From a virus: a stretch of DNA of 64,000 nucleotides. The DNA lies in the IMG/VR virus record IMGVR_UViG_3300027759_000087, positions 1-64,000 of that record. The stretch is one strand, 5' to 3'. A program made the position numbers and the translations under genes. The notes under the pieces are model-generated. The model saw only the letters and a list, made by a program, of their open reading frames with translations, made no database searches and was not told where the DNA came from. Positions 14,374 through 46,234 of the stretch are shown here, piece after piece. Every line of letters starts with the position of its first letter. The stretch's first letter is position 1.

Positions 14374-14374
14374 T

Positions 14375-18084: not shown

Positions 18085-18086
18085 TT

Positions 18087-18524: not shown

Positions 18525-18544
18525 TATACGTACATATTAAAAAT

Positions 18545-18556
18545 CAATAAATATTG
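18545..18556 (+). promoter_or_regulatory. Late promoter upstream of gp6
   Basis: CAATAAATATTG, a 12-nt palindrome around the late core AATAAATA, 15 nt before the gp6 start region. It is preceded by ATATACGTACATAT (18527-18540), a TACGTA-containing motif that also occurs next to the late boxes at 5611 and 61147. Confidence 0.6.
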
Positions 18557-18571
18557 ATAATAGGATAAAAC

Positions 18572-21500: not shown

Positions 21501-22054
21501 CATACAAGCCATTGCCTCCAAGCAGTGATGAACTAAACAATACATTTGCTCCAAAATTAAATTTAATTAAAACTATCAGTGATGAAATCATCTATCATCC
21601 TGTAAAGTATAAAGTTTTATTTGGTGCTAAAGCTGAAAAGAATTTACAAGCACAATTTAAAGTAGTTGTTAATAAAACAGTAGTAGTGTCTGATAACGAT
21701 ATAAAAACACAAATTTTATCTGCAATTAATAATTTCTTTGCGTTAGGTAATTGGGACTTTGGAGATACTTTTTATTTTACAGAGATGGCAAGTTATGTCA
21801 CATCTCAAGTAAGTCCCGCAATTGTTAACTTTGTTATAGTTCCAACCGCCAGCTCATTATCATTTGGTGGATTGTTTGAAATTACAGCGGGCCCTGATGA
21901 AATTTTTATTAGCGGAGCAACCATCATCAATATTGATATAGTAACATCTATGACTTCTTCAACTATTAATAGTTTAGGAACTATCACTTTAACATCAAAT
22001 GCTATTGCAGTGCAAGCATTAACAAGCTCAGCTTACGGATCATCTAATGTCTGA
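18572..22054 (+). CDS. 6: Baseplate wedge protein gp6
   Basis: 1160 residues (T4 gp6 is 660). The N-terminal 130 residues (DFENIRRSMIDYLRQNFPED, YIESSEYLALIDLIAYLAQS, AFRVDLNARENFLELADRRD, SVLRLARMLSYNAKR) are strongly conserved in gp6, which forms the inner ring of the baseplate. AEDYNISPL (about 435) and the C-terminal LFGAKAEKNLQAQFKV to NNFFALGNWDFGDTFYFTEM segment (about 1015-1085) are also typical. The extra length lies in the beta-rich middle (residues 130-430 and 540-900). The stop overlaps the giant gene start by 8 nt. Confidence 0.94.
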   Translation: MSATDRQNRLLVAKDWTKVYQSFRNADFQSYDFENIRRSMIDYLRQNFPEDFNDYIESSEYLALIDLIAYLAQSIAFRVDLNARENFLELADRRDSVLRLARMLSYNAKRNQASKGVLKFTSVQTTQNVLDSNGRNLSNQIVGWNDSSNNNWYDQFISVLNAAFPANQQFGNPSDSATIYNVPTEQYKFNSSNTAVPVYGFTKTVNGSRMEFEVTSTTFSGQDYIYEETPKLGNPMACIYKNDGQGSASNNTGFFFYFTQGTLNNGAFTISQPTASESIDLDSTNINDTDVWLYKIDQQGIESELWTPVPNLTGNNIIYNSLNKSIKNIYKVITRAGDRISLSFSDGTFGTTPLGTFSVYYRTSNGLSYTINPQDVRGVSLTIPYISSLGQAEELTITLGLQSSVDNSSATESNDTVKDNAPATYYTQNRMITAEDYNISPLSVSQEIAKIKAVNRSASGISRYLDLIDPTGKYSKTNLFADDGVLYQEIYTVNTTFTYASRTDIQGIIINKIFDILAEPDLRNFYYSKFTNISTTLLDISWYNVTNDLSFSSGYLGSTIDKKPYLLSAYTNTALRYVSVGSLVKFEAPLDADGSEQVFDRSNGNALIKKTAIAKSNTSDYIWAEIVTLAGDGTAAGTGVLSDGSGTVSLNDTIPTGAIATRVVPVWKTIIGSTVITTMTDLIANNTPFGLRYDINTQSWQLIFQSNLDSSGPFSLGKQGDISNLQLDASWLLLFVTDTITYTVSTRKLRYIFESAAQLRFYFDNDERVYDNVSGTLLTDSINVLSVNTQPGLAIPFTFDQKFKITNQFIGLDGYVDTKKIVLTFSDKDNTGIVQDPDTFNNIVVPATTFSLSANYIVLEKYTVEAGQDDYRYVTNNDSKMIVLQTQPTNFAQYNNGQYFYFIDVDTVAVYNSATSELTPSLDYKVFLGRDNLKFQYTHNASDTHRIDPGISNIMDVYVLTNSYDLLFRQWLNDVITYKPLPPSSDELNNTFAPKLNLIKTISDEIIYHPVKYKVLFGAKAEKNLQAQFKVVVNKTVVVSDNDIKTQILSAINNFFALGNWDFGDTFYFTEMASYVTSQVSPAIVNFVIVPTASSLSFGGLFEITAGPDEIFISGATIINIDIVTSMTSSTINSLGTITLTSNAIAVQALTSSAYGSSNV

Positions 22055-25000
22055 TAATAAAAACCCAACAGGTTCAAATAATTACTCAATGGTAGATTTG
22101 CTACCAAATTACTATCGCACCGATGCTAATAATAAATTTATCCAAGCAACTGTCGATCAGCTGTCACAAAAAGGCACTGCTAAAAAAATTACTGGCTATA
22201 TTGGCCGTCAAAATGCAAAATCGGCTAATGGGTCTGATGTGTATATTACATCCCCAACTAGTATTCGTCAAACTTATCAGTTAGAGCCGTCTGTAGTTAT
22301 TAACGACAGCACAGGAAATACTACCTTCTTTAAAGATTATCAGGATTATATTAATCAATTAAAAGTATTTGGAAGTAATGTTGCTAATCACGAAAATATT
22401 AATCGCCAGGAATTTTATTCTTGGGATCCCCACATTGAATGGGATAAATTTGTCAACTTTCAAAACTATTACTGGCTTCCTTACGGCCCAGATTTAATTA
22501 CTATTACCGGTCAGAAATTAAATGTTACTAGTACATATACTGTATCTATATCGCAATCTGCTACGTTGCAGAAAGAATATTTGTTTACTCCAAACGGCTT
22601 AGATCGTAATCCTTCTTTAACACTATATCGCGGCCAAACTTATTATTTTGAAATTGATAGTCCTGGGGAACCGTTTAGTATTAAAACTGCTCGTACTCCA
22701 GGCACCTCAGACAGATATACTGATGGAAATTATGTAGATAAGTTTGCAGTTGAATCAGGAATACTTAAATTTACAGTTCCAATTGCTGGCCCAGATAATT
22801 TATATTACATAAGTGAACGCAATGCTGACTTAGGCGGCCTAATTAAATTTTTAGATATTACTGAAAATAGTTATATTAATGTTGAAACAGAGTTGTTAGG
22901 CAAAAAAACATATTCACTTTCTGACGGCACGCCTTTAAGTAACGGAATGAAAGTTGCGTTTAGCGGTAACGTAATTCCTGCACAATATAGTAAGGGAGAA
23001 TATTATGTAGAAGGCGTTGGCACTGCAATTGCATTAGTACCAACTACAGTTCTTGAAATTGTCAGTACATATACTCAAGATAAAGCAGTTAATTTTGATT
23101 CAACACTGTTTGATCAATACCCGTTTGCGGCCGCAACTTCATTTGCTGGAATACCAGATTATATTACTATTAATAAAACTAGCAAGGATCAAAATCCGTG
23201 GAGTAGGTACAATCGTTGGTTTCATACGGATGTTATTACTGCCAGTGCTAAATTTAATAATAAACTAGCAGACTTTGATCAAGCTAGTCGAGCAGTCCGT
23301 CCAATTATTGAATTTGAAGCAAATTTAAAATTATTTAATTTTGGTACAGTTGCAATTGCCGACGTTGATTTAGTCGATGATTACACTACGGATGTGTTTA
23401 GTATCATTGAAGGTTCAGCTGGATATAGCGTTGACGGTATCCAATTAACACAAGGTATGCGTATTGCGTTTATAGCAGATCCAGATATCACTGTAAAGAA
23501 TAAAATTTTTAAAGTTTCTTTTATCAACATTGCAAATTCAGGCATTGGTGTTCCGCAAATACGATTAATATTAGATGAAACACCTACTACTAATTCAAAT
23601 ATGTTAGTAAGACAAGGTGTTAAGTATCAGGGTTATAGTTTTTGGTTCAACGGCTCAAGTTGGATATACGGGCAACAAAAAACAATTGTTAATCAAGCAC
23701 CGTTGTTTGATTTGTTTGACAAGTCGGGGTTAAGTTTTGCTGATTATAGCGGCTCAACGTTTAAAGGTACACAACTGTTTTCTTACAAAGTTGGAAATAC
23801 AATTGCCGATACTGTTTTAGGATTTAGTTTAAGTTATCAAAATATTAATAATATTGGAGATATACTATTTTCTTTTAATTTATTAACTGATTTGTTTAAT
23901 TACAAAGAAAACGAAATTTTAACTACAAAACTTGTTAACACAGGGTTCTTATCTAAGTTAACTTTTGTTAATTCTAGTGTATATGTTAATGGATGGCAAA
24001 CTAGTCTTGTAACCCGTTACCAACCAGCTATTAGAATTTATAAAAATTCTGGACTAACCAACAATTTTGCATTGGATATCTATGATAATAAAACAGATTT
24101 ATTAGATTTAGAAATCCGATTATATGTCAACGGCCGCCGACTTAATAAAGCAGAATGGAAATTATTAGATGCAGTAAATTATAAAAAAATTATATTATCT
24201 AAAGATATTTCTAAAACTGATGTATTGACAATTAAAGCGTTTGCTAAACAGCCAATTAATAATAACGGCTATTATGAAATTCCAATTAATCTACAAAATA
24301 ATCCGTTAAACAACGATATAGGTAACTTTACCTTAGGCGAAGTAACTGACCATGTAAATTCTATTATTGATAATATTCAAGACAGGTATGTAGAAACATC
24401 ACCGGGTGTAAACAATTTAAGCGATTTAGGAAATATTACTCCTTACGGTACAAAATTTGTACAGCATAGCGGCCCTGCAAGTTTAGCACTTTATCATATT
24501 ACAAGTGAACAGAATAATGTTATTCGAGCTTTAGAAAAATCTCGAGACGATTACGGCAAATTTAAACGTAGTTTTTTACTTGCGGCTAAAAATCTAAAAA
24601 CTGATACTGATGTTGTTAGCCAGGTTAATACAATACTTAAAACTTTATCTGCAAATAAAACACAAAAATCGTCGTATTATTTTAGCGATATGGTACCGTT
24701 CACAGGAAAAAAAGTGACGGAATATCTAGTTGTCGATACTAGTAATAAACTATATCCGTTATCAACAACGTTTGATAATACCATTATTTCAAACAAAGCA
24801 GTAAGTGTATACTTTAATGGAACTCAATTATTATACGGCATTAATTATTTTTTTACAGCAGACGGTTATGTAGAACTTAACAATACGGTATCAGTAGTCA
24901 ACGGTGACAAAGTTGTAATCTTTGAATACGACAGTACGGATGGTTGTTTTATTCCTCCAACTCCTACTAAATTAGGCTTGTGGCCAAAATTTACTCCAAA

Positions 25001-28000
25001 GATATATGTGGATAATAGCTATCTAACACCCCAAACTATGATACAAGGGCACGATGGAAGTCAGGTATTGGCATACGGTGACTATCGAGATGCTATTATT
25101 TTAGAATTAGAAAAAAGAATTTATAATAACATACAAACCAAATACGATCCTACAATATTTGATATCTATAATATTATTCCGGGTTACCACAGAACAAGTA
25201 ATTTTACATTAGATGAATTTAATAAATCTTTAGCCTCTGGATTTTATAAATGGGCTGGAATTACTGGAAGAGATTTTTCTAAACAAGTTGGGTTTAACAA
25301 AGCTAATACATTTACATTCAATTATAAAGGAAACACAGCCCCAGACGGAAGAAGCCTACCAGGCTATTGGAGAGGAGTTTATCGTTGGATGTATGACACC
25401 GATAAACCACATTTATTTCCGTGGGAAATGTTAGGTTTCAGTGAAGAACCAACTTGGTGGCAAGCAAAGTATGGCCCAGCACCTTATACTAGTAACAACC
25501 TTGTAATGTGGAAAGATTTAGCCGCAGGCGCAGTTAGCCAACCAGGCATGCCAGTTGTGTATCGACCACAATTTGTTAGACCAACATTATTAAATCATGT
25601 GCCGGTTGACGAAAGTGGAAATTTAATAAGCCCAGCACTTGCCAGATTGTCAAACGGAGTATTTAATGCCGATATTCAAAGTCATTATGTATTTGGAGAT
25701 GTTGCACCTGTTGAATCAGCATGGCGTAGAAGCAGTTACTTTCCTTTTAGTACACTGATAGCTTCTATGATTTTACAACCTGCACAAACTTTAGCAACAG
25801 GTTTAGATATATCTCGTACTGTAAGAAATTTATGTGGACAGTTGGTATACAAAGATACTAATTTAAGAATACGACCGCAAGATATTGCTTTGCCTAGTAT
25901 CTATTCTAGCACCTCTAGAGTTTATACTTCGGGTATTATCAATTATTTGATAGAATCTTTAATCTCAAACAATTATAACTATTACCAAGACTATCAATAT
26001 AATTTAACTAATCTAAATATAAATCTATCTTATAGAATTAGTGGGTTTTCAAGTAAAGAAAACTTTAATTTAATCCTTGATAGTAAAAATCCTGCGGCCA
26101 GTGGCAATGTTTTTGTGCCGCCTGAGAATTATAAACTTGTATACAACAGTTCAAGCCCTATTGGTAAATTATCCTATAGCGGCATTATTGTTTCCAAAGT
26201 TGATACTGGTTACGAAATCAAAGGCTATAGTTCTTCGGAATCATTTTTTAATTACTATTCTTATAGACAAGAACTTGGCCCACAAATTAATGTAGGCGGA
26301 ATCAGTTCAAGTTTTGTAACGTGGACTGCTGGCAAAACGTATGTGCTAGGACAAATTGTTTTATATAGTGGCAAATATTATCGAACACTATATGCTGTTA
26401 CACAAGATACGTTTAATATTAATGCATTTGCAATATTACCGTCACTGCCAATAGCAGGCGGAGTAACTGCAATTTTTAGACAAGCATGGGATACAACTAC
26501 AACTAATGTACTGCCTTATGGTTCTGTATTAGCAGACGTACAACAAGTAGTTGATTTTATATTAGGTTACGGCGCATATTTAAAAAATCAAGGTTTTGTA
26601 TTTGATGATTTTAATAATGCCTTATCTCAAGTTAGTAACTGGGAAACAACAGCTAAAGAATTTATGTTCTGGACCACACAAAAATGGTCTGCCGGACAAA
26701 ATCAATGGGAACAATGGATTCCTAATATTGCAATTGCCTATGGAGACATTGTAAAATATCAAGGAGAATTCTACAAAGCTATACAGAATGTTCCAGCACA
26801 ACAAGTATTCCTTGAAGAGTTTTATTTCAAGTTGGATGGATTAAGCACTGTAGGAAGTCCAGTTATTAGTTTAAGTCCTGCCGCTAATAAATTGACATTT
26901 GTTTCGCCATTGTCAGTCGCAGAAGATATTAATAATCCTTTTAATGATTATGAAATATTTCAAGTAGATGGTACTAGCTTATTACCAATGGATATTAATT
27001 CGTCTAGACAAGGAAACCTTGTGACGTTTTCTCCGGCTAATAACGGCACCATCTATAATGCTAGTTTTTATCTAGTGCAAAAAGAACAAGTTTTAATTTT
27101 AGATAATGCAACGGTGTTTAATGATATTATCTACCATCCAGAAAGCGGATACAGACAAGAGCGTATTAAAGTTTCTGGATTTGTAAGTAGCCAGTGGTTT
27201 GGTGGATTTGAAGTTCCTGGATTTATCTTTGATAGAGCAGATATTGCTCCGTGGAAATCGTGGACTGATTATTCAGCAGGCGATATAGTATACTATCAAG
27301 GTTATTACTATAGTGCCAATGCTTTCTTAGCAGGATTTTCAGAGTTTGATCCTAACAACTGGTCTCAAATTAAGAAACCAGTCCCAACACTATTGCCTAA
27401 TTGGTCATACAAAGCTGGACAATTTGAAGATTTTTACAATTTAACAGAAGATAATTTTGATGTTGGACAACAAAAAATTGCCCAACATTTAGTAGGTTAT
27501 CAAAAACGTCAATATTTAAACAATATTATTCAAGATGATATTAGTGAGTTTCAATTTTATCAAGGAATGATTCGAGAAAAGGGTACACAAAACAGTCTTA
27601 ATAAACTGTTTGATGTATTAAGTGCTGATAACAAAGAAAGCATAACATTCTTTGAAGAATGGGGCATTCGTGTAGGTCAGTACGGCGCAAGTCAGGCATA
27701 CGAAGCAATTGAATTTTTAGTAACGCAACCAGATATAACTAAAAATTCACAAGGGTTCTACTTAACGTTATTACCAGAACGTTCTACAAATTTTAATTTA
27801 AATATTCCTGCTAACAAGGTGTATCTAAAACCGCAAGGGTATGATGCCAATCCGTTCCCAGTTAATAACAAGCAGAAATTTTTCTTAAGATCTAGCGGAC
27901 ATGTACAAGCTAGTACTGATACAGTACAAATTAAATCAATATCTGATTTATCAACACAAGATATTACAAAATTTAAAGATGGTACATATATCTGGGTAGC

Positions 28001-31000
28001 ATTTGAAAAAACAAGTTGGAACATTTACAGATTTACATCTGTAAAATTAATGCCAGTTGATGCAGTTTATAACAATGATAAAACAATTACAATAAAAACG
28101 TCTAATTTTGTAGATCCTAGTATAGTTGGATATTATATTGGAATTCAGCAAGTATCGTTTGCAGGATTTTATAAAGTAGTTGCGGCTGAATTAACAACAC
28201 TAACAATTGATGCATCTAATTTTTCGTCAAACAGCGACTGGCCAACCGCAGATAACATTAAATCTAATTTACAAATTTTTAACCTATATCCGGTAAGAAC
28301 TAATTCAATTAACAATGCAAATAATATTATTAAGGCTTATACAGAATTAGGAGACAAAATTTGGGTCGACGATGACGGCACAGGTAAATGGGCAACCTTA
28401 AAACTAACCTCTGTATTTGCCCAATCAGAAATTAGAAAACCTTACACAGCTCCAGATACTGCCCATGGCCGTATAGTAACATTAAGTGCTAGCGGATTAA
28501 TTGCGGCAGTAGCAACACAATCGGGCGAAGTAATTATCTACGAAAAGCAAGGTAACCGATGGATATTTAGACAAATAATTAATCGTCCGTTTATGTCGCA
28601 ATATGAGTTTGGAGTAGATCCAAACCCAGCTATCACATTTGCCGAAACAATGGCAATGAGTTCAGACGGACAGTTTTTAGCAGTTGGCAGTCCCCAAGCA
28701 GGCAAACTGGCCACACGAGTATTACCTAATGGAAACATTGTCTGTGATAAATCTAGTTTAAACGCATCTACTACACTTACGGGCGCAGTTAGTTTATACC
28801 AAAAAGATGAATTTAATGAATTTATATTACTGTTTACTATTGCTAGTGGTGACAATATATCGGGACAACAATTTGGATCATCGTTAACATTTGGAACAAA
28901 TACGTTGTTTGTTGGTTCAAAAGGCAATACTAATTACGGAACACAAGCAACAGTCTTTGAATTAAGATATATTGTTGGAATTGATAGTAATACAACTACA
29001 ACTAATACAAACGCTGACGGCGAAACAGCCAATGCTATTGTAACAGTAACTTACGATGCTGGTAATGCGTTTTCAACTAGTAATAGTTCGGCAGATGTAT
29101 CATTTGATGGCGGCTCAGCTCTTACAATTGAAAGTACAGCCGACAGATGGGTAATTGTACGCCCAGGTATAAGTATAACCAACGGATCTAGCATTGGCTT
29201 TGGATTATCTTTATCCGTATCAGCAGATAATTCTGTACTGGCAATTGGCGCACCTCTCGGAGGCTCTGTATACATTTATAGATTAAACACTAACAATGTT
29301 TATAGATTATCGCAAACAATTAACGGTCCGACCCAAATAGTAACTGACGCAACTACTGTTGACGGAGTTGTATCATTTAACGCATTAACTTTAAGTGGCG
29401 GATATGGATTTAAAACAGCCGTTAACGAATTTACAAATACACTACTGACAAATTTAAATACTGCCGGCGGCACTGGAACTGGATTAATTGTAGATGGAAC
29501 GTTAGATTCAAACGGAGTAATTCAAAAAGTTAATATTAGAGAACCAGGAAAAAATTATCAAGTTGGTGATACTATCACAATAGTAAATCCTATTGGAAAC
29601 GGTTCTGTATTAAGTTTAGCATGGTCAACAAAAACATACAACGAAGGAATTCAATATAAGACCGGCGATACTGTGACATTAGGCGGTGTTAACTACGTTG
29701 CTATAGCCAATACACCAACTATTGTTGGATCGTTAACATTAATACCAAAAAATCCAGCAACAGAGGCATCATTTTGGTCTGTAATTTCTTTTGCTAATGC
29801 ACTAGTTGGAACTGACATCAGTGTAAGTACAACAACAGGTTCTGGATCAGGATTAAAAATTAAATTAGCAACTGCAACAACATCAGGAGCAGTAGCAGGT
29901 AATATTGTAATTCCAGTTACTACAACTGATAACTTTGCACCAGGGCAATCCGTATTTTCAGCAACCTCACCAACAGCATTTGCGGCCGGCACATACATTA
30001 CACAAATTAATAATGCATCATTTGTATCAACATTATCCGATAATGTTTTAACTGTCACTAGTATTACTGCTGGTAATAATAATGTTGTTGCAAAAATATT
30101 TGGATCTATAATTGGTACTACTCTTACCGCTGAAGAAATTGCCGGCGGCAGAATATTACCGGGAATGGTATTAACAGGAACAGGAGTTCCAGAAAATATT
30201 TTTATTATCAGCGGATCTGGCAATACATGGACTATTAATAATCCTGCTTCTGTTTCTAAAGTACAAATTACAGCAACATTGTACGAAACAATTACTCCAG
30301 GAATGCAACTAATAAATCCTGCGCTTGATACTCCTGCAACGTTTACAGGAGCAATCTCTACCAAAGGAACAGCAACTTTAACTGGCGCAGTTACTACTGT
30401 GATTGGTGGAGTATCATCTTTATATAATGCTACAATTAGCGGTACTACACTAAAATTTGATACTGTTACCGGCGGTGACCCTGTTGTTCCAGGAATGACA
30501 TTGACAGGGACAGGTGTTACTGCTGGAACAAAATTATTATATGGAAGCGGAACAACTTGGATAGTTAATACTAGTCAAACTGTTGCATCTCCGGTTACCA
30601 TCACAGCCACATTAACTACAGCATCAATTGACGGTTACAACTTAACATTTTCAAAATTTACCGGCGCATCTTTGCAACCCGGTGCAATATTAACCGGCGG
30701 CAGTGTGGTTGCCGGTACAAAAATAGTAGGCGGCTCTGGAACTTCGTGGACTGTTGATATTAATCAAACAGCAACTTGTACTACTGCTACCCTTCCTTAC
30801 GGATCGATTAATGGAAATACATTAACATTTACTGCTAAAACAGGCGCAGATATTGAAATTGGAATGGCAGTATCTGGGTTAACAACTGTGCCAGGCACAT
30901 TTATAACAGGCGGTTCAGGCACTACTTGGACTGTTAATATTAATCAATCAACTATTTGTAGCCAAGTTACATTGCAAGCGTTCTTAATTGATGCACAAAT

Positions 31001-34000
31001 TATCAACACCACACTAACTTTTACAAGTAGTACTGGAGCAGATTTAATAGCAGGAATGGTGTTAACTGGCACTAATGTGATATCAGGAACTTATGTTATT
31101 AGTGGCGCAGAGTCTGAGTGGATAGTAAGCACTTCACACGGCTCTAGCGTTGTTCCAACAACAATAACAGCAACACCAGTGTATCTTACTGTTAGCGGAA
31201 CAATTACTGGATCGGTGTTACTAGGCCAACAACTAGGCGGATCAGGAGTAGCTAGCGGCACAACTATAGTTGCCTCAGGTACAGGCATTGGCAAAGCTGG
31301 AACTTACTTGGTTACACCAATACAAACTATTGGAGCTAATCCGTTTACCAGTCGTTACATTTATACAAGACCTACAATCATTCCAGGTATTACATTATCC
31401 GGAGCAACTATATCTGGTACAACATTAACATTTTCTAATAATACTGGTGGCGCCATACATGCTGGAATGTTAGTAACAGGAAGCAATGTGTTGCCAGGAA
31501 CTGCTATTGTGTCTGGATCTTCAACTAGCTGGGTAGTGAGTATAAGTCAAACTGTTTCTGCTACTACTTTATTAGTTACTGGTACAGGAACTGGCGGCAC
31601 TGGCACATACATTATAGATCAAGTATTGCCTGTTGGTATAAATGTAACAAGAGGGATTAGTCTAGTTCTTAATACTGGTTTAGCAAATACATTGTCCGGC
31701 GCTGGAGAAGTTACAAGCCTAACAATTTCTAATTACGGTACAGGATATGCTATAAACGATCTAGTACAATTTAACATATCTGGTGCTTCTAATTTAATTA
31801 GAACGCAAATTGCAGAAATTACTAGCAACGCTACAATTACTGTCGCTTCGATAAGCGATGGCAGTATTACTAAAGATGCTTCACAATTTGCTTCTAGTAT
31901 AAAACTTAACACTACCGGAGAATACTTGGCAATTGGATCCCCACTATATTCTGGAATGACTGGGTTTGACGGCCAAGTATTAGTTTACAGTAATAACACA
32001 AGTACTCAGAATACTTACAGCCTTTTCCAAGAAATTACAAATCCACATTCTGCTTCTGGAGATTTATTTGGCAAAGCAGTTGACTTTTCAACTGACGACA
32101 AAACTTTACTAGTTTACAGTCCCGGAGCCGACTCATTTATATTAACTACATTCGATGCAGATAATTTACAAACTAGTTTTGATGCTAATTCTTTACAATT
32201 TAAAGAATTGACTTTAAATTCAGGCAAAATTGATGTATATACTCGTTATCTAACTAATTGGATTCTTGGAGAATCATTGTACAATGCAAATACAACTACA
32301 GACGGCTTTGGACAAAGTTTTGCAATTGCCAACGATACTATACTAGTAGGCGCTCCCCATGAATTTGATGTGTTAAATGATGAGCAAAATAGTATTCCTA
32401 TCAAACAACTTAACTCTGGTAAAGTGTATTCGTATGAGCGCAATGCTAATAGTTTAAACTGGAATCCTATACACGAGCAAGCAGATTTAATTGACTTAAC
32501 TAAAATTAAACAAGTATTCTTGTATAACAAATCTACTAGCAAACTTATAAAATATCTAGATGTAATAGATCCTAATTTTGGAAAAATTGCAGGATCTGCC
32601 GAACAAGAAATTAGCTATAAAACATTTTATGATCCTGCAATTTACACTGTAGGAAATAGTGCAGTTAATACTGATGCTGGTTCCGCATGGACAACATCAA
32701 ATGTGAGTAAATTGTGGTGGGATTTGCGAACTGCAAAATTTGTAGATAGTCATGCAACAGATATTGTTTACCGAAATAGTACACTAAACATGCTAGCTAC
32801 TGGCGCTAGCATTGACATTTACGAATGGGTTGAAACTAAATTGACTCCAACAGAGTGGAAATCACAAGCAGACACTTCAACCGGATTAACTAAAGGCATC
32901 AGCGGCCAACCGTTGTACACAGATGCATATAGCATTAAACAGCATTATAATACTTTTACAAAAGTATACGAAAACACTTATTATTTCTGGGTCAAAAATA
33001 AAGTACTAGTGCCTGAAGTAGAAAACAGATCAACATCTGCGTATTCAGTATCTAGATTAATTGGAAATCCTAGAGGAGAGAATTATTCTTATGCAAGTAT
33101 AACCGGAAAAAATTCTTTTAATCTAGTAAACTGTCAAAATTTGTTAGCAGGCGACGATGTTGTATTGGGTATTGAATATTGGGTAGTGGATAATACAACG
33201 CAAAATACACATGCACAGTGGAAATTAATTGATAATAATCCTAGTACTAATTTACCATCCGCTATTGAAAATAAATGGTTTGATAGTTTGTGCGGAAAGG
33301 ACCAAGCCGATAGACCAGTTCCAGATTTAGGATTACCTGCTAAATTACGATTTGGTATTGAAAGTCGTCCTCGACAAAGTATGTTTGTTAATAATTATGA
33401 AGCTTTAAAACAATTTGTAGAGCGTACTAATAGAATATTAATTAACAATCAAATTGTTGAACAAAAAAATATATCATTACTTGATAGTTACGATGTTGCT
33501 CCGTATGCATTTACTGGAGAATATGATACCATTGTTGATACAGACGCCGAGCTAAGAGTTATTGCAGTTTCTACAGCTAAGCCGGCATTTGTTTCTCCTA
33601 TAATTACTAATGGTTCAATTACTGGAATTACAATTATCTCTGCAGGTTCAGGCTACATTAATACTCCTGCAATATCTGTATTTGGAAAAGGATCTGGAGC
33701 AAAACTAAAAGCAATTATTGATATTGCAGGACGAATTGTTGGCGTAACTATTTTAGACAGCGGCAAAGGATATACTTCAACAACAACATTAACAGTAAGA
33801 CCGTTCTCCGCGCTAGTTAAATCAGACTCTGTAGCCCATGGCAAATGGAGCATCTACGCATATACGATTAATAATATTACTAATATTAAATCGTGGACAA
33901 GAATACGTACTCAATCTTACGATGTACGTACTTATTGGAACTATGTAGATTGGTATGCTACAGGCTTTAATCAATTTACTGTAGTTGATAATGCAATAGA

Positions 34001-37000
34001 TACATTTGCAGAAATAGGAACAATTACCCCAGTAGTTGGGCAAACTTTAAAGATTCGAGTTGCTGGATCTAAAGGTTGGCAATTGCTATTCTGCTATTCA
34101 TCTACAGTAACGTTAGACTGGACTCAACAATATAATGTTGTCGGTATTGAAAACGGAACTATACAGTTAAGTCAAACACTTTATAATTTTAGCAATAATA
34201 ATATTGGCTTTGATAGTTCAACATTTGACGGAATTGGATACGATAATACCGCCAGTAAAGAATTACGAATTATTCTTAATTGTTTAAAATCTGAAATTTT
34301 AACAGACACCTTAAAACAAGATTATCTAGATTTATTTTTTGCTAGTATTAGGTATGCACATTCTGAACAGACATACATTGATTGGGCATTTAAAACTAGT
34401 TTTGTAAAAGCTCAACATAATGTTGGCAGTCTAAAACAAACAGTTACATACACAAATGATAATCTTTCTAACTTTGAAGATTATATTAAAGAAGTTGTCC
34501 CTTACAGAACAACAGTACGAGAATATGTAAGTAACTATATATCTACTGATAGCAGTTCGTCTGTAATTACAGATTTTGATTTGCCAGCAATTTTTAATAA
34601 TTCTGGCAACACTGTTATTAAAACAGAAGTACAACAAGGTAAAGTAGTTTCAAATAATGAACTAATACAATCTTATCCATGGAAACATTGGTTAGAAAAT
34701 TTAGGATTTCAGTTAACTTCTATAGTTATTACATCATCAGGTTTGGGATATGTGTCAGAACCTAAAGTAAAAATTATTAGCGATAGTGGCACCGGAGCAG
34801 TGGCCCGTGCCTATGTTGCTAATGGTAAAGTAACTAGAGTTGATTTATTAAATTCTGGAAGCGGTTACCTTACTGCACCTACTATCGTTATTGACGGCGG
34901 CTCAAGTGCCACAGGAACAACAGCTAAAGCAATTGCTATTATTGGCAAATCTTTAGTTAGGTCTAGTCTTATTAAGATGAAATTTGATAGAATTAATAGC
35001 AAATATTATATAATTCAATTAAATGAAGAACAGACATTTCCAGGCGGCCCAAATAATTATCAACTAAGATGGGCTCCAGATATTAAAATTAATGCTAGTA
35101 CTGTAAAAGTAAACGGCATTACAGTCTTGCGCGACACTTATGTATTATCAGTAGTTAAATCAACTAGCAAAGGTTATACAACATATTCAGGCTTGCTTAA
35201 ATTTGCATCGGGCCTAGCCCCCGCAGTTGGCACAGTAGTTACTATTAACTACTTAAAAGATATTGATTTATTAAACGCAACGGATCGTATCCAATATTTT
35301 TATGATCCAGTAAGCGGACAATTAGGCAAAGATTTAAATCAGTTAATGACTGGAGTTGACTATGGCGGCGTCATAGTAACTGGCACAGATTATAATACTG
35401 CAAGCGGCTGGCAAAGTGTTGGCTTCATGCAAGATTTGTGGGATTCATACGAAAATACATACAACGATTATATTGTAAGCATTAACGCTACTTCTGCCGC
35501 ACTGCGCACTTTTGAATTACCGTACATGCCAGCAGTATTTGAAAATATTAATATATATTATCAATCTACAGTTAAGAATGTGTATACATCAAACGGTTCT
35601 AGCTTAATATACACATTTGATTTAAATTATAATTATATTAATTCAATTAACGTGACTATTGATAAAGCTGTAGCGGGCATTTCTAAAACTGTTACAGATA
35701 CTTCAACAGAAACAACTAGTGTTATTCAAACACTTAATGGTTTCAATACATTAACAGTTGCGAGTGTTGCTAATCTTTCAGTAGGTAAATCAATTAAATT
35801 TTTATCTGGAACAGCAAACACTGGACTTATTGCAAATCAAACATATTATGTAAAAACAATTATTCCTGTTTCAAATTCATTTACAGTGTCGGATAGTCTT
35901 GGCGGCCCAGTAGTTACAGTTAATAATATGCCTACTGCCGCAAATCCAGTGTTGAATATGGTAATGCAATATGGCACATCTACAAACTACTTAACATCTA
36001 CTACTTCTGGCCTGTATGCTGGAATGGCATTCCAATTTAGCGGTAATGCGTTGTTAGGCGGAGTGATTACCAATAAAACATATTACGTTAGTCAAATAGT
36101 TGATGCTACTCATTTTACTATAAGCGCAACTTCTGGCGGCCCTGTATTAGCATTGACATCTGCAATAGGCACAATGACATTGCGACAAGTAGCGGCTTCA
36201 CCTGAATCTACGCTGTTATTAACCAACATACTAGGATTAAAAGTTGGCGATGTAGCAACAACAACAGTTGATGGTGCAATTGCAGACGGTACTCGTATTG
36301 TTAAAATTAATTCTAACTCTGTATTATTATCTAATATATTGTACGGAGACATACTAGCCAATACACCTATTACTTTTGTTAGAACATTAACTGCGCCTGT
36401 TAATTTTAGATATATTACTAATAATTCATTGCAGTTGGCAGAAGCACCGGTTGCAGGAAGTATACTTACAATTTCTGGTGCAGAGGCTCCTGTTAGAATT
36501 GATGATCCAAATTTTAATAAGCAATGGATTATTACGGCTACTGAAGCAACAACAAATATTATAACAACTGTAACTCCTATTACATTTGAAATTGGTGATT
36601 CGATTTCATTTACTGGAACAACTATTGGCAACATTAATCCTAATACTCCCTATTATGTACAGGATATAATAGACAATAGACATTTTAAAATAACTGCAAC
36701 TACAGGAGTGCCTGGCCCAAATCCAAACGGAGTAGAGTTTAAATTAAAATCAGCAACAGGTTCTTTTGTGGCAAAAAGCACAGGCAACGCTACCGCAGTT
36801 ATGTCTACTTATATTGCAGACGGTTTACAACCTATTATTACAATTCCAAATACGTATCCTTTAACAGTTGGTGATTTAATAATTTTCCGTAAGAGCACAA
36901 GCGACGGATCGGTAGCAGTTAATTCAAACGATTTAGATACTGTGCTAGATGGCGGCACTTTAGTTTATAATACCGCTACTGGAATAGCGCCAGATGATAT

Positions 37001-39908
37001 TATTGTAGACGGCGACGGATTTGTAACCGTAACAACAGGTAGTGGTCCTGAAGAACTAGTACAAGGACAAGTGGTAGATTCAGTAGCAATTAAAGTGTTT
37101 GACAGACCAAGCGATGGATCTGCAACATTAAAAGTATTGAGTTATATTGCAGATGGTACAAATAAGAAATTTGATTTAGAACAATTTCCAAATAGTTCAA
37201 GTGCTGTGTATGTTAAAGTAAATTCTAATATTTTAACAACCGGAACAGATTATACTTTAGATTATTCAAATAAAAAAATAGTATTAAAACTAGCGCCGCC
37301 TGCCGGCAGTACAGTTACCTTACATAGTTTTGGATTTAATGGTACAAACATCTTAGACGTTGATTATTTTATAACAGACGGAAAGACTAAAGAATTTATT
37401 ACAAAAGCACCTTATTTAGATACACCATTTACATATATAGTGTACCTAGATGGAGTTGCAATACAACCAACTTTGTTCAAAACAGACTTGTCATATGATA
37501 GTCCAAACAGAATTGGTTTTAGATTTAGTATTGCCCCAACTAAATTACAAGTATTGAATTATTTGATTATCTCCGGAACCCAACAAACATTCTCAATTTT
37601 TAAGAATGAAAAAATAGCAACTAACGGTAGTTCAACTTATACATTAACAAACACTATTGGATCTAGTTTACCTTTAGAAAGTAGTATCCTTGTTCGTGCT
37701 AATCAGAATTTGTTAAACGGGCCTAACAATAATTACTTTACAATTTCAAGTAATCAGTATAATTATTCACTTGATATATTGTCAACTCAGCCATACAGTA
37801 TTAACACAGACGATCTTACTGTGTATGCTGATGGAAATTTATTAAACATTTCTACAGATTACACTGTTGACACATCTGGTGTTACTATATCAATTAATAA
37901 GAAAGTTTACAGTACTTACAAAGGTAAAAAGTTAATAATCAATGTTAAATCAGCACAGGACTATTATATTGTAGGTAACACAATATCATTTAATCAAGCA
38001 TACACTAATGCAGATTATGTGGAAGTTGTATCAGCTTACAAACATGATATTTTGCAAATACAAAGATCTCGAGTTAAAGCAACTAATAACTTGCAATTTT
38101 CTTCAGCATCGGCAAATTATTATAGATACGTTTCTGTACTTGGCGGTAAAATTGAATTGTCCTCAACTATATCAACCGAAGCGCAGTTGTGGGTTACAAA
38201 AAATAAAACATTATTGATTAACGGAGTTGATTATAAAATTAATCCAGACTTAGCAAGTATTAGTTTAGATGCTCCAGTAATCGTGGGCGATGAATTTGAA
38301 TGCATTATATTTGCGGGCAGTCCAGTTAAACAAGGACTAAGCTATATGCAGTTTAAAGATATTTTGAATAGAACTGTTTATAAGAGATTAAACTTATACA
38401 AACAAAATACTCTAGCACAAGATTTATATTATTACGACAGTGTCATATATGTTAAAGATGCAGGTAATTTTGACAAACCAAATCCGGCACTTAACAAGCC
38501 TGGCATTGTTGAAATTAACGGTGAGCGTATTGAATACTTTACAATTAAAAACAATACTACACTTGGACAGTTACGCCGCGGAACATTGGGTACTGGTATT
38601 CCTACAGTACATGGTGCCGGCTCACGTGTACAAGATATTGGGCCGGGAGAAACTATTCCGTATAACGATACATTTAAAACAGAAAATACAATTGTAGACG
38701 AAGTTAATGTTAATAAAATTATTCCTTTAAGTTTTACCCCAACTAAGAATGATGCATGGACCGCAAGCCCATCAGAATTTGGGTTATTTGATAATGCAAT
38801 AATTCAAAAGTATATTAGTAAAACTGGCGCCGGCCCTTACTTGATTGAATTTGCAGTTCCGCAACAACAGTATGCTCCAGCAGTTGGTAAATCGATATTG
38901 ATAACAAATAATAGCAATACTAAGTATAACGGTTATTATAAAGTATCTAGTTCAGATATTTCTAATACTGTAACAGTATATCCAACAATAATTAGTTCAA
39001 TCTCTACTATTGGTACTTCAATTAGTGTAACTTTTACAATCCCATTGCAAGATGTTGCACCGTTAACTCAACGTTATTATATTATCAACGGAGCTATGCC
39101 AGTAGAATATAATAATGCATGGATTTGTAGTGCAAGTTCTACTACAAGTATAACTCTAACTATTACAAATAATTACGGAGTCTTTAAAACTCTACCAACA
39201 TCTATAGTTTCAGCCCATACAATTACCATGGCATATCCTACAGATCCTGGAATATATGGAACAAAGCAGATAACTACTATATCTGCTCCAAGATACGGCC
39301 AAGCAAATGAAATGGAAGTGTTTGTCGGTGGGTATGACGATTCAACAATTTGGACTGCAAATACAATATTTGTTGCAGAACAAATTATAACAGTTAATAG
39401 CTATGTATATAAAATTAAAACTACTCATAGAAGTGGGGCAACATTTAATAGTCCTGTAACTACGTTGGATGAAACTAATGCGATAATTGCATCTAATGTA
39501 CTAGCAACTAGTGTACGAACATTATTTGTTGGTAATATAAGATTAAAGAAAAAACCTTACAGTGTGCATACTATAGAAAATGCTCCTAATAGCCCAGAAG
39601 GTGATATAACATTTGGTGCAGACTTTGCAGTAGACGGAATTAATTCTGAATTAATATTAAGAAATAAACTTAGTCCTGGTACAGTAGTAACAGTTACTAG
39701 AAAACTTGGACAATCGTGGACTGAAACTGGAGTTTCATTACAAGATAGTCAAACTAAAATTGCTAAGTTTATTACAGCAGTACCGGGAGTGTGGTTGTCA
39801 AGTAATAAGACTACAAGTACACAAACTACGACAGCTACAACAACAACATTTGACAATGTTTCTGGAACATTCGACGATGATAACAATACATTCGATCAAG
39901 GAATCTAA
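22047..39908 (+). CDS. Giant baseplate/fibre protein of 5953 residues at the gp7 position
   Basis: One uninterrupted frame, roughly 640 kDa. It occupies the place of gp7 (1032 residues in T4) immediately after gp6, with which it overlaps by 8 nt. Residues 1-2000 are wedge-like (early segment FYSWDPHIEWDKFVNFQNYY; later EFQFYQGMIREKGTQNSLNK). About 2140-3470 hold FG-GAP-type beta-propeller blades (LAVGSPQ, FGLSLSVSADNSVLAIGAP, LAIGSP, FGQSFAIANDTILVGAPH), interrupted at about 2680-3200 by tandem fibre repeats. Further modules are GxGY-type repeats (about 3855-3920 and 4225-4300), three TYYV-type repeats (about 4545-4915), and an LRRGT segment near 5508. The C-terminus is Thr/Asp-rich (FDNVSGTFDDDNNTFDQGI). 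I infer a wedge protein fused to fibre or adhesin modules; the gp7 equation rests on synteny. Confidence 0.75.
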   Translation: MSDNKNPTGSNNYSMVDLLPNYYRTDANNKFIQATVDQLSQKGTAKKITGYIGRQNAKSANGSDVYITSPTSIRQTYQLEPSVVINDSTGNTTFFKDYQDYINQLKVFGSNVANHENINRQEFYSWDPHIEWDKFVNFQNYYWLPYGPDLITITGQKLNVTSTYTVSISQSATLQKEYLFTPNGLDRNPSLTLYRGQTYYFEIDSPGEPFSIKTARTPGTSDRYTDGNYVDKFAVESGILKFTVPIAGPDNLYYISERNADLGGLIKFLDITENSYINVETELLGKKTYSLSDGTPLSNGMKVAFSGNVIPAQYSKGEYYVEGVGTAIALVPTTVLEIVSTYTQDKAVNFDSTLFDQYPFAAATSFAGIPDYITINKTSKDQNPWSRYNRWFHTDVITASAKFNNKLADFDQASRAVRPIIEFEANLKLFNFGTVAIADVDLVDDYTTDVFSIIEGSAGYSVDGIQLTQGMRIAFIADPDITVKNKIFKVSFINIANSGIGVPQIRLILDETPTTNSNMLVRQGVKYQGYSFWFNGSSWIYGQQKTIVNQAPLFDLFDKSGLSFADYSGSTFKGTQLFSYKVGNTIADTVLGFSLSYQNINNIGDILFSFNLLTDLFNYKENEILTTKLVNTGFLSKLTFVNSSVYVNGWQTSLVTRYQPAIRIYKNSGLTNNFALDIYDNKTDLLDLEIRLYVNGRRLNKAEWKLLDAVNYKKIILSKDISKTDVLTIKAFAKQPINNNGYYEIPINLQNNPLNNDIGNFTLGEVTDHVNSIIDNIQDRYVETSPGVNNLSDLGNITPYGTKFVQHSGPASLALYHITSEQNNVIRALEKSRDDYGKFKRSFLLAAKNLKTDTDVVSQVNTILKTLSANKTQKSSYYFSDMVPFTGKKVTEYLVVDTSNKLYPLSTTFDNTIISNKAVSVYFNGTQLLYGINYFFTADGYVELNNTVSVVNGDKVVIFEYDSTDGCFIPPTPTKLGLWPKFTPKIYVDNSYLTPQTMIQGHDGSQVLAYGDYRDAIILELEKRIYNNIQTKYDPTIFDIYNIIPGYHRTSNFTLDEFNKSLASGFYKWAGITGRDFSKQVGFNKANTFTFNYKGNTAPDGRSLPGYWRGVYRWMYDTDKPHLFPWEMLGFSEEPTWWQAKYGPAPYTSNNLVMWKDLAAGAVSQPGMPVVYRPQFVRPTLLNHVPVDESGNLISPALARLSNGVFNADIQSHYVFGDVAPVESAWRRSSYFPFSTLIASMILQPAQTLATGLDISRTVRNLCGQLVYKDTNLRIRPQDIALPSIYSSTSRVYTSGIINYLIESLISNNYNYYQDYQYNLTNLNINLSYRISGFSSKENFNLILDSKNPAASGNVFVPPENYKLVYNSSSPIGKLSYSGIIVSKVDTGYEIKGYSSSESFFNYYSYRQELGPQINVGGISSSFVTWTAGKTYVLGQIVLYSGKYYRTLYAVTQDTFNINAFAILPSLPIAGGVTAIFRQAWDTTTTNVLPYGSVLADVQQVVDFILGYGAYLKNQGFVFDDFNNALSQVSNWETTAKEFMFWTTQKWSAGQNQWEQWIPNIAIAYGDIVKYQGEFYKAIQNVPAQQVFLEEFYFKLDGLSTVGSPVISLSPAANKLTFVSPLSVAEDINNPFNDYEIFQVDGTSLLPMDINSSRQGNLVTFSPANNGTIYNASFYLVQKEQVLILDNATVFNDIIYHPESGYRQERIKVSGFVSSQWFGGFEVPGFIFDRADIAPWKSWTDYSAGDIVYYQGYYYSANAFLAGFSEFDPNNWSQIKKPVPTLLPNWSYKAGQFEDFYNLTEDNFDVGQQKIAQHLVGYQKRQYLNNIIQDDISEFQFYQGMIREKGTQNSLNKLFDVLSADNKESITFFEEWGIRVGQYGASQAYEAIEFLVTQPDITKNSQGFYLTLLPERSTNFNLNIPANKVYLKPQGYDANPFPVNNKQKFFLRSSGHVQASTDTVQIKSISDLSTQDITKFKDGTYIWVAFEKTSWNIYRFTSVKLMPVDAVYNNDKTITIKTSNFVDPSIVGYYIGIQQVSFAGFYKVVAAELTTLTIDASNFSSNSDWPTADNIKSNLQIFNLYPVRTNSINNANNIIKAYTELGDKIWVDDDGTGKWATLKLTSVFAQSEIRKPYTAPDTAHGRIVTLSASGLIAAVATQSGEVIIYEKQGNRWIFRQIINRPFMSQYEFGVDPNPAITFAETMAMSSDGQFLAVGSPQAGKLATRVLPNGNIVCDKSSLNASTTLTGAVSLYQKDEFNEFILLFTIASGDNISGQQFGSSLTFGTNTLFVGSKGNTNYGTQATVFELRYIVGIDSNTTTTNTNADGETANAIVTVTYDAGNAFSTSNSSADVSFDGGSALTIESTADRWVIVRPGISITNGSSIGFGLSLSVSADNSVLAIGAPLGGSVYIYRLNTNNVYRLSQTINGPTQIVTDATTVDGVVSFNALTLSGGYGFKTAVNEFTNTLLTNLNTAGGTGTGLIVDGTLDSNGVIQKVNIREPGKNYQVGDTITIVNPIGNGSVLSLAWSTKTYNEGIQYKTGDTVTLGGVNYVAIANTPTIVGSLTLIPKNPATEASFWSVISFANALVGTDISVSTTTGSGSGLKIKLATATTSGAVAGNIVIPVTTTDNFAPGQSVFSATSPTAFAAGTYITQINNASFVSTLSDNVLTVTSITAGNNNVVAKIFGSIIGTTLTAEEIAGGRILPGMVLTGTGVPENIFIISGSGNTWTINNPASVSKVQITATLYETITPGMQLINPALDTPATFTGAISTKGTATLTGAVTTVIGGVSSLYNATISGTTLKFDTVTGGDPVVPGMTLTGTGVTAGTKLLYGSGTTWIVNTSQTVASPVTITATLTTASIDGYNLTFSKFTGASLQPGAILTGGSVVAGTKIVGGSGTSWTVDINQTATCTTATLPYGSINGNTLTFTAKTGADIEIGMAVSGLTTVPGTFITGGSGTTWTVNINQSTICSQVTLQAFLIDAQIINTTLTFTSSTGADLIAGMVLTGTNVISGTYVISGAESEWIVSTSHGSSVVPTTITATPVYLTVSGTITGSVLLGQQLGGSGVASGTTIVASGTGIGKAGTYLVTPIQTIGANPFTSRYIYTRPTIIPGITLSGATISGTTLTFSNNTGGAIHAGMLVTGSNVLPGTAIVSGSSTSWVVSISQTVSATTLLVTGTGTGGTGTYIIDQVLPVGINVTRGISLVLNTGLANTLSGAGEVTSLTISNYGTGYAINDLVQFNISGASNLIRTQIAEITSNATITVASISDGSITKDASQFASSIKLNTTGEYLAIGSPLYSGMTGFDGQVLVYSNNTSTQNTYSLFQEITNPHSASGDLFGKAVDFSTDDKTLLVYSPGADSFILTTFDADNLQTSFDANSLQFKELTLNSGKIDVYTRYLTNWILGESLYNANTTTDGFGQSFAIANDTILVGAPHEFDVLNDEQNSIPIKQLNSGKVYSYERNANSLNWNPIHEQADLIDLTKIKQVFLYNKSTSKLIKYLDVIDPNFGKIAGSAEQEISYKTFYDPAIYTVGNSAVNTDAGSAWTTSNVSKLWWDLRTAKFVDSHATDIVYRNSTLNMLATGASIDIYEWVETKLTPTEWKSQADTSTGLTKGISGQPLYTDAYSIKQHYNTFTKVYENTYYFWVKNKVLVPEVENRSTSAYSVSRLIGNPRGENYSYASITGKNSFNLVNCQNLLAGDDVVLGIEYWVVDNTTQNTHAQWKLIDNNPSTNLPSAIENKWFDSLCGKDQADRPVPDLGLPAKLRFGIESRPRQSMFVNNYEALKQFVERTNRILINNQIVEQKNISLLDSYDVAPYAFTGEYDTIVDTDAELRVIAVSTAKPAFVSPIITNGSITGITIISAGSGYINTPAISVFGKGSGAKLKAIIDIAGRIVGVTILDSGKGYTSTTTLTVRPFSALVKSDSVAHGKWSIYAYTINNITNIKSWTRIRTQSYDVRTYWNYVDWYATGFNQFTVVDNAIDTFAEIGTITPVVGQTLKIRVAGSKGWQLLFCYSSTVTLDWTQQYNVVGIENGTIQLSQTLYNFSNNNIGFDSSTFDGIGYDNTASKELRIILNCLKSEILTDTLKQDYLDLFFASIRYAHSEQTYIDWAFKTSFVKAQHNVGSLKQTVTYTNDNLSNFEDYIKEVVPYRTTVREYVSNYISTDSSSSVITDFDLPAIFNNSGNTVIKTEVQQGKVVSNNELIQSYPWKHWLENLGFQLTSIVITSSGLGYVSEPKVKIISDSGTGAVARAYVANGKVTRVDLLNSGSGYLTAPTIVIDGGSSATGTTAKAIAIIGKSLVRSSLIKMKFDRINSKYYIIQLNEEQTFPGGPNNYQLRWAPDIKINASTVKVNGITVLRDTYVLSVVKSTSKGYTTYSGLLKFASGLAPAVGTVVTINYLKDIDLLNATDRIQYFYDPVSGQLGKDLNQLMTGVDYGGVIVTGTDYNTASGWQSVGFMQDLWDSYENTYNDYIVSINATSAALRTFELPYMPAVFENINIYYQSTVKNVYTSNGSSLIYTFDLNYNYINSINVTIDKAVAGISKTVTDTSTETTSVIQTLNGFNTLTVASVANLSVGKSIKFLSGTANTGLIANQTYYVKTIIPVSNSFTVSDSLGGPVVTVNNMPTAANPVLNMVMQYGTSTNYLTSTTSGLYAGMAFQFSGNALLGGVITNKTYYVSQIVDATHFTISATSGGPVLALTSAIGTMTLRQVAASPESTLLLTNILGLKVGDVATTTVDGAIADGTRIVKINSNSVLLSNILYGDILANTPITFVRTLTAPVNFRYITNNSLQLAEAPVAGSILTISGAEAPVRIDDPNFNKQWIITATEATTNIITTVTPITFEIGDSISFTGTTIGNINPNTPYYVQDIIDNRHFKITATTGVPGPNPNGVEFKLKSATGSFVAKSTGNATAVMSTYIADGLQPIITIPNTYPLTVGDLIIFRKSTSDGSVAVNSNDLDTVLDGGTLVYNTATGIAPDDIIVDGDGFVTVTTGSGPEELVQGQVVDSVAIKVFDRPSDGSATLKVLSYIADGTNKKFDLEQFPNSSSAVYVKVNSNILTTGTDYTLDYSNKKIVLKLAPPAGSTVTLHSFGFNGTNILDVDYFITDGKTKEFITKAPYLDTPFTYIVYLDGVAIQPTLFKTDLSYDSPNRIGFRFSIAPTKLQVLNYLIISGTQQTFSIFKNEKIATNGSSTYTLTNTIGSSLPLESSILVRANQNLLNGPNNNYFTISSNQYNYSLDILSTQPYSINTDDLTVYADGNLLNISTDYTVDTSGVTISINKKVYSTYKGKKLIINVKSAQDYYIVGNTISFNQAYTNADYVEVVSAYKHDILQIQRSRVKATNNLQFSSASANYYRYVSVLGGKIELSSTISTEAQLWVTKNKTLLINGVDYKINPDLASISLDAPVIVGDEFECIIFAGSPVKQGLSYMQFKDILNRTVYKRLNLYKQNTLAQDLYYYDSVIYVKDAGNFDKPNPALNKPGIVEINGERIEYFTIKNNTTLGQLRRGTLGTGIPTVHGAGSRVQDIGPGETIPYNDTFKTENTIVDEVNVNKIIPLSFTPTKNDAWTASPSEFGLFDNAIIQKYISKTGAGPYLIEFAVPQQQYAPAVGKSILITNNSNTKYNGYYKVSSSDISNTVTVYPTIISSISTIGTSISVTFTIPLQDVAPLTQRYYIINGAMPVEYNNAWICSASSTTSITLTITNNYGVFKTLPTSIVSAHTITMAYPTDPGIYGTKQITTISAPRYGQANEMEVFVGGYDDSTIWTANTIFVAEQIITVNSYVYKIKTTHRSGATFNSPVTTLDETNAIIASNVLATSVRTLFVGNIRLKKKPYSVHTIENAPNSPEGDITFGADFAVDGINSELILRNKLSPGTVVTVTRKLGQSWTETGVSLQDSQTKIAKFITAVPGVWLSSNKTTSTQTTTATTTTFDNVSGTFDDDNNTFDQGI
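30100..31640 (+). repeat. Tandem ~50-60-residue fibre repeats within the giant gene
   Basis: About seven diverged copies encoding the pattern I-x-G-T-x-L-T-F ... T-G-A-x-L-x-x-G-M-x-L-T-G-x-x-V-x-x-G-T-x-I-x-x-G-S-G-T-x-W-x-V-N-x-x-Q-T. Clear copies start near 30110, 30430, 30620, 30800, 30995, 31185 and 31395. The copies have diverged at nucleotide level, so they are old or fast-evolving. This type of repeat is common in fibre proteins of environmental phages. It interrupts the propeller-like blade series. Confidence 0.8.
35690..36790 (+). repeat. Three diverged TYYV-type repeats within the giant gene
   Basis: Repeated modules of about 80 residues share the pattern L-x-V-G-x-x-I-x-F-x-G ... 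N-x-T-Y-Y-V-x-x-I-x-D-x-x-x-F-x-I-x-x-T-x-G-G-P (near 35735-35960, 35985-36190 and 36540-36780). A related module opens the 783-residue protein at 49214 (PTTYYVIAVGSSTITLSLTP), so the unit has been shuffled between fibre genes. Confidence 0.7.
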
Positions 39909-42381: not shown

Positions 42382-42993
42382 ATGCAAGGTAAAGATTTAA
42401 CCGGAATTCACATAGAAGGGCACATTAAGATCTTCAACCCAGAGTCGGGAGAAGTATTCATTAATAAGCGCAACGCTATTCACTATGAAAATATGAGTAT
42501 TGCGCTAGCTCAAACTATGGCTAATAGTTCAAAAGGCGGCACAGTTTATCAAATGGCATTTGGCAATGGCGGAACAGCCATAGATCCAACAGGAATTATT
42601 ACTTACCTAACCCCAAACAGTTCAGGAAGTAACGCTAGTTTATACAATCAAACTTTTGCAAAAGTAGTTGACGGGCAAAGTAGTAATAATACTGACCCTA
42701 CTAGAAATTATCTTGAAACTCGTCACGTAACTGGAACAAATTATACAGATTTATTTGTAACTTGTTTATTAGATTACGGCGAGCCTTCGGCACAGCAAGC
42801 ATTTGACAATGCAACCAACACAAATGATTCATTTGTATTTGATGAACTTGGACTAGTAAGTTATAACCCTAGTGGTACGGGCTTGTTATTGACACATGTT
42901 ATTTTTAACCCTGTACAAAAGTCATTGAATCGTTTGATCCAAATAGATTATACAGTACGTATCCAGAGCTTAACTGGTTTGGCAGGAGCATAA
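42382..42993 (+). CDS. Structural protein of the fibre cluster, unknown exact role
   Basis: 203 residues. The opening is conserved-looking (TGIHIEGHIKIFNPESGEVF then NKRNAIHYENMSIALAQTMA), followed by a beta-rich body with QMAFGNGGTAID and a C-terminal IDYTVRIQSL strand. It sits where T4 has gp8/gp9, between the gp7 position and the collar-type fibre genes, and may connect fibres to the baseplate. I do not see sequence similarity to gp8 sufficient to name it. It is the first gene after a late promoter and is separated from the next gene by 3 nt. Confidence 0.65.
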   Translation: MQGKDLTGIHIEGHIKIFNPESGEVFINKRNAIHYENMSIALAQTMANSSKGGTVYQMAFGNGGTAIDPTGIITYLTPNSSGSNASLYNQTFAKVVDGQSSNNTDPTRNYLETRHVTGTNYTDLFVTCLLDYGEPSAQQAFDNATNTNDSFVFDELGLVSYNPSGTGLLLTHVIFNPVQKSLNRLIQIDYTVRIQSLTGLAGA

Positions 42994-46220: not shown

Positions 46221-46234
46221 CAGTAGTAGATAAC

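Follow-up and report, generated by a model that had tools for sequence, protein, structure and literature searches.

The DNA analysed here, called the window throughout, is a stretch of 64,000 nt that makes up almost the whole of a 64.9-kb virus record. An uninterrupted reading frame of 5,953 codons runs from ATG to stop at positions 22047-39908 of the plus strand, a length over which base composition alone would give about 445 stop codons. The computed product, referred to below as the giant protein, has 5,953 amino acids, a mass of 649 kDa and a pI of 5.2. The codon-position bias in G+C content was even along the whole frame, with third-position values of about 0.16-0.24, which fits one coding frame. 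Searching IMG/VR with the N-terminal core of the giant protein as the query returned 62 loci. The nearest relatives, on two independent contigs, had full-length, stop-free frames of 5,937 and 5,949 aa, and the other complete relatives, on other contigs, had single frames of about 3.3-5.2 kaa. Apart from the size of the frame, nothing pointed to an assembly artefact or a chance fusion of several genes, and this explanation is refuted by the two independent contigs, by the uniform codon bias and by the homologues that cultured phages carry, at 3.3-4.5 kaa. These results confirmed that the 17.9-kb frame of 5953 codons reported in the original prediction is a real single gene for a 5,953-residue virus protein. 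A nucleotide search of phage records gave no match. Isolated frameshifts were observed in two homologues, L020 (near 16200) and L050 (near 8940 and 13880); since their positions differ, they look like sequence errors or dead or decaying copies, not a common feature.

The genes around the frame are arranged in the order gp53-like, structural, gp5-like, gp25, gp6-like, giant and gp9/10-N (Table 1). This order matches gp25-gp6-gp7-...-gp10-gp12 of T4, with the giant gene in the place of gp7. The gp6-like gene is the translationally coupled partner of the giant gene; their reading frames overlap by 8 bases, and the overlap between gp6 and gp7 of T4 is 4 bases. A gp6 homologue was located directly 5' of the giant gene in 66 of the 69 related loci with enough upstream sequence, taking a gp6 end no more than 150 bases from the giant start as the criterion, and the median overlap was 1 base. 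Hence, the predicted location where T4 has gp7 holds family-wide, and the adjoining gp6, together with the full-length frames on other contigs, excludes the joining of several genes during assembly, against which the prediction had cautioned. In the window gp8 was not recognised, and the search with phrog_438 found only the GSGY-repeat part of that profile.

Several of the neighbouring genes showed features of their own. Of an 887-aa hub/lysozyme profile, the gp5-like hub protein matched mainly the initial ~200 residues, and Pfam showed no lysozyme domain in it. The gp9/gp10-like protein was recognisable in relatives over its first ~35 residues only, the remainder being variable. At 42997-47735, three adjacent genes (704, 369 and 490 aa) have short N-terminal families in common (phrog_15511/14394) and differ in their C-terminal parts, as if different fibres shared one anchor. 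The last of them gave a weak Peptidase_G2-like match at its C-terminus (E 0.009).

Table 1. Positions of the giant gene's parts and of its neighbours in the window.
Feature	Residues	Position	Strand	Evidence or remark
gp53-like		start 14074		Upstream of giant
gp5-like hub protein, 486 aa		16624-18084
gp25		start 18087		Upstream of gp6-like
gp6-like baseplate wedge subunit, 1160 aa		18572..22054	+	phrog_10646 E 4.7e-298; phrog_219 (T4 gp6 family) E 8.5e-24
N-terminal core	1-2025	22047..28121	+	Conserved throughout the relatives, 121Q, PA5oct, Atu_ph07 and SCTP-2 included (block conservation, tblastn)
LLP motif and first predicted helix	18-45	22098..22181	+	Motif by eye; proposed first half of core bundle
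CBM5/12 (chitin-binding type 3)	1425-1451	26319..26399	+	PF02839, 49 bits over protein, cut-off 26.2
CBM5/12	1736-1756	27252..27314	+	PF02839, 29.5 bits, cut-off 26.2
QYL...FYQGMI.EKGT..S..KLF, helix-KGT-helix	1821-1860	27507..27626	+	Proposed trifurcation half of gp7
Variable FG-GAP-type propeller region	2026-3450	28122..32396	+	Occupancy <0.3 in relatives
Six ~62-aa fibre-type tandem repeats	2697-3180	30135..31586	+	Inside variable region
Middle conserved block	3451-4500	32397..35546	+	DWAFKTSF and EVVPYRT motifs
GSGY-type beta repeat	3839-3917	33561..33797	+	phrog_2885 E 4.2e-22; phrog_701 E 5.7e-21; phrog_460 E 1e-17
Second GSGY-type beta repeat	4218-4293	34698..34925	+	phrog_460, phrog_438
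C-terminal conserved block	4951-5550	36897..38696	+
T7 tail-fibre N-terminal-type domain	5029-5092			PF03906, 29 bits, cut-off 25.2
gp9/gp10-like wedge/fibre connector		39912..42329	+	PF07880 T4_gp9_10_N, 29 bits, cut-off 25
Small conserved protein, 203 aa		42382-42993		Downstream of gp9/gp10-like
Collar-domain fibre		start 42997

Block conservation among the relatives revealed three conserved blocks in the giant protein, at residues 1-2025, 3451-4500 and 4951-5550. The variable parts (2176-3300, 4500-4900 and 5550-5850) are kept mainly in close relatives. As to the propeller, fibre-repeat and adhesin-like modules of the original prediction, FG-GAP, CBM5/12 and T7-fibre domains scored above their Pfam cut-offs, and six fibre-type repeats were present. 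An FG-GAP propeller repeat was found at residues 3417-3437 (PF14312 FG-GAP_2, 31.3 bits against a cut-off of 23), and each of the six fibre-type repeats matched a repeat HMM, built from the same copies, with E 1e-23 or better. Weaker CBM5/12 sites were located at residues 2531 and 5769, and CBM structures were among the Foldseek matches of the AlphaFold2 model of residues 1560-2125. The GSGY repeats are mobile modules that recur in cyanophage gp7 families and in structural proteins of other kinds, hub and neck proteins among them, and the small T7-fibre-type module at 5029-5092 is common to residues 51-107 of cyanophage gp7 (probability 71%). A module common to cyanophage gp7 profiles (phrog_4406, 65-127) was also seen in another large frame, of 2,166 aa, on the contigs of two relatives (G007, C1:50102-50290; G008, C1:165590-165778), a sign that large structural proteins exchange modules.

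The giant protein belongs to a family present in cultured jumbo phages. The phrog_10938 profile matched its two halves with E values of 2.9e-224 and 9.6e-81, and tblastn against phage records found homologues in PA5oct and its relatives, Atu_ph07, SCTP-2 and the 121Q/RaK2/CBB/GAP32 group. In PA5oct and its relatives the matches covered 71% of residues 1-2,500 at 28% identity. Members of the family include 121Q gp582 (3,323 aa), RaK2 ORF070w, CBB_236, PA5oct gp355 (3,857 aa), Atu_ph07 gp180 (4,449 aa) and SCTP-2 gp140 (3,807 aa), and they are annotated in the cultured phages as 'virion structural protein', 'structural protein' or 'hypothetical protein'. In the regions inspected, the homologues of cultured phages follow the gp6 gene, except that SCTP-2 (L005) has an unrecognised protein of 3,096 aa in the place of gp6 (10627-19917), with no tblastn match to the gp6 of the window. 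The wedge slot adjoining the giant homologue in SCTP-2 may thus be inflated too.

Mass spectrometry has detected CBB_236 in virions with 21 peptides and 7.7% coverage (PMC5259590), and phAPEC6 gp245, of 381.9 kDa, with 17 peptides and 7.6% coverage (PMC7247149). The record of PA5oct gp355 also marks its detection by ESI-MS/MS. For phAPEC6, a reconstruction of the tail has been published at no better than about 25 A (PMC7247149). Virion presence has therefore been shown for homologues, and by analogy with them a virion role of the window protein is supported. Since coverage of the homologues was low (7.6-7.7%), their intact size is not visible in these data (PMC5259590, PMC7247149), and the mosaic architecture would also suit a polyprotein that is cleaved post-translationally into several virion proteins, so that the particle would hold no 649-kDa subunit. 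We regard such processing as improbable, as Pfam found no protease domain in the giant protein, the published proteomics describes no cleavage of a homologue (PMC5259590, PMC7247149), and full-length frames are intact across the relatives.

The table of T4 counterparts for CBB lists the wedge proteins gp6, gp25 and gp53, and gp7 is missing from it (PMC5259590). In the publications consulted, no gp7 is named for the RaK2/PA5oct/Atu_ph07-type jumbo phages, and the giant homologues are not called gp7 (PMC5259590, PMC7247149). A separate gp7 homologue, the finding that the original prediction had set against itself, did not turn up: neither the record nor the complete genomes of 121Q, PA5oct, Atu_ph07 and SCTP-2 yielded a convincing match to the phrog_964 and P2 gpI profiles, with none above the Pfam cut-off for gpI (PF09684), which is weak negative evidence because a diverged gp7 could evade these profiles. 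The 203-aa product of 42382-42993 was assessed as a possible small gpI and discarded; it gave no sign of being one and had no LLP or KGT motif. The phrog_17744 profile had no match anywhere, and this search was uninformative.

Direct comparisons of the giant protein with T4-type gp7 were negative. When 16 segments were aligned by hhalign with 19 T4-type gp7 sequences, the probability was below 2% in all segments, and phrog_964, the T4 gp7 profile, had no match in the record. Sequence searches of the PDB with phmmer, profiles and large segments retrieved no gp7 chain, only chance matches and a tailspike that was hit through the GSGY repeat. Foldseek with an AlphaFold2 model of residues 1560-2125 found no gp7, the core helices of this model being poor (pLDDT 24-50 in the helix region). 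The AlphaFold2 model of residues 3440-4510 was fair (pLDDT 73), and matches in BFVD were mainly to the same family and to cyanophage structural proteins. Against the PDB this model matched neck, tail and fibre proteins at E values of 0.009 or worse, and the predicted gp7 resemblance at residues 3900-4200 was therefore unsupported; the gp7-like stretches were instead the LLP motif at residue 18 and the KGT region at 1821-1860. Of the original identification as a gp7-type wedge protein, the position, the virion role as judged from the homologues and the mosaic architecture were supported, and direct homology to T4 gp7 was not demonstrated by HMM, hhalign or Foldseek.

Cyanophages offered an indirect route to gp7. 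Giant proteins occupy the same slot in these phages, such as those of S-CREM1 (5,422 aa) and S-PM2 (S-PM2p081, 3,048 aa), the P-SSM4 'gp7' at 57144-79082 (7,312 aa) and Bellamy gp111, a 'baseplate wedge initiator' of 4,067 aa. Their motif 'DFY.sKGT..S...LF..LYg' matched residues 727-758 of T4 gp7, with a probability of 96.7% by hhalign and an E value of 7.9e-6 in a PDB search. The most conserved helical stretch of the giant family reads 'QYL.NI......EF.FYQGMI.EKGT.N.L.KLF', in which Y, L, F, Y, G, I, K and G are invariant in 24 relatives. When the cyanophage gp7 motif profile was run against 90 windows of the giant protein, the KGT window ranked first with a score of 27.7, followed by an overlapping window at 21.9 and the next at 18.9. 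Pairwise hhalign of the two motifs over ~40 residues gave E values of 0.0007-0.0023, each for a single comparison and uncorrected for the choice of the motif by eye, and the probability was only 12-26%, making the link to cyanophages suggestive and not proof. An HMM of residues 1800-1880 matched S-PM2 gp7 at the KGT motif but ranked it below an unrelated small ORF, so this test alone was not significant. AlphaFold2 gave a helix-KGT-helix at low confidence. The N-terminal LLP motif had no profile match to the N-terminus of T4 or cyanophage gp7, and matches of the cyanophage gp7 profiles (phrog_2885/701/4406) to the giant protein were confined to the GSGY repeats. Between the LP/LLP and the KGT motif T4 has 86 aa, S-PM2 and Bellamy ~185, S-CREM1 and P-SSM4 ~690 and the giant protein 1,827, a series that reads as one site growing by insertion. 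The comparison suggests that the giant protein and the cyanophage gp7s may share the KGT helix motif in the right register.

We conclude that the frame probably encodes a jumbo-myophage wedge scaffold equivalent to gp7. The main rival to this model is a baseplate-attached adhesin or fibre that sits in the gp7 slot, with another, diverged protein or a larger gp6 performing the role of gp7. Consistent with it, no T4 gp7 match was significant, most of the length of the giant protein consists of fibre, sugar-binding and propeller modules, and the gp6-like protein is indeed enlarged (1160 aa compared with 660 in T4). Such an adhesin, however, would not be expected from the strict coupling to gp6 in nearly all loci, nor from conservation that is strongest in the N-terminal core and the KGT region and not in the adhesive parts. 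No gpI/gp7 candidate was found in the complete relatives to take over the role of gp7, and the product of 42382-42993 is without the motifs of one. On balance we consider the adhesin unlikely, while giving it more weight than the cleaved polyprotein.

As a gp7-equivalent scaffold, the giant protein would be present once per wedge and six times per virion, adding up to ~3.9 MDa, and would pair with two copies of gp6 like the (gp6)2-gp7 of T4 and XM1. Even the type VI secretion baseplate retains this arrangement (PMC6300606). In the proposed model, the N-terminal LLP helix joins gp6 in the core bundle and the pair of KGT helices at 1821-1860 makes the trifurcation, with ~1.8 kaa of beta and CBM5/12 modules splitting the two. 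In XM1 gp17, an orthologue of gp7, core-bundle domain I is split into residues 1-79 and 107-133, and tail spikes attach at the unresolved loop 80-106 and at the C-terminus (PMC10457771). These spike sites give a structural reason for modules to gather in the interval separating the motifs and at the C-terminal end. The ~1.8 kaa between the helices and the ~4 kaa of propeller and fibre modules behind them could build a large peripheral carbohydrate-binding rim, and the most likely role of the giant protein is to tether a large, fibre-like structure that binds sugars to the tail tip. A bolder version, which we put forward tentatively and judge doubtful, is that one polypeptide absorbed both the gp7 scaffold and the outer baseplate, forming a split-core, six-fold sugar-binding rim of 3.9 MDa in place of gp8 and of further peripheral proteins of the wedge.

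Giant proteins in the gp7 slot are already known, the P-SSM4 gp7 being larger and the same family occurring in cultured jumbo phages, and the novelty is therefore modest. Three things are new: the size of 5,953 aa within the phrog_10938 family, whose members in isolates have 3.3-4.5 kaa; the explicit proposal of a gp7-equivalent role for the giant of jumbo phages; and the reading of its core as split. The window also adds a very large, naturally variable and putatively adhesive subunit in environmental phages. If the proposal is true, the gp7 identity would complete the wedge of the RaK2/PA5oct/Atu_ph07-type jumbo phages and explain the giant gene after gp6, and it would provide a testable picture of baseplate enlargement by modules growing inside and behind a fixed helix core.

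Compared with T4 gp7 (1,032 aa, PDB 5IV5, phrog_964), the giant protein has the same gp25/gp6/gp7 gene order, the overlap with gp6 and, by eye, a helix-KG-helix, but no significant match in sequence or structure. The extra domains of T4 gp7 precede the core motifs, whereas those of the giant protein lie between and after them. With the gp7 of Kyanoviridae it has in common the slot after gp25 and gp6, the GSGY beta repeats and, in two cyanophage proteins, a long insertion between LP and KGT. Similarity to cyanophage gp7 is not significant over the full length, the common KGT motif is only suggestive, and the YYQ...HPAGF motif of cyanophage gp7 is absent from the giant protein. XM1 gp17, a minimal gp7 orthologue of 242 aa, is 25 times smaller and was compared through its description only (PMC10457771); the plan proposed for the giant protein is that of gp17, with a split core and with the loop between its halves and the C-terminus as the sites for spikes. 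The phrog_10938 isolates have proteins 1.5-2.6 kaa shorter, without the modules at 2176-3300 and 4500-4900 of the window protein, but they are homologous to it over the N-terminal core and the middle block at 22-32% identity and occupy the same place after gp6.
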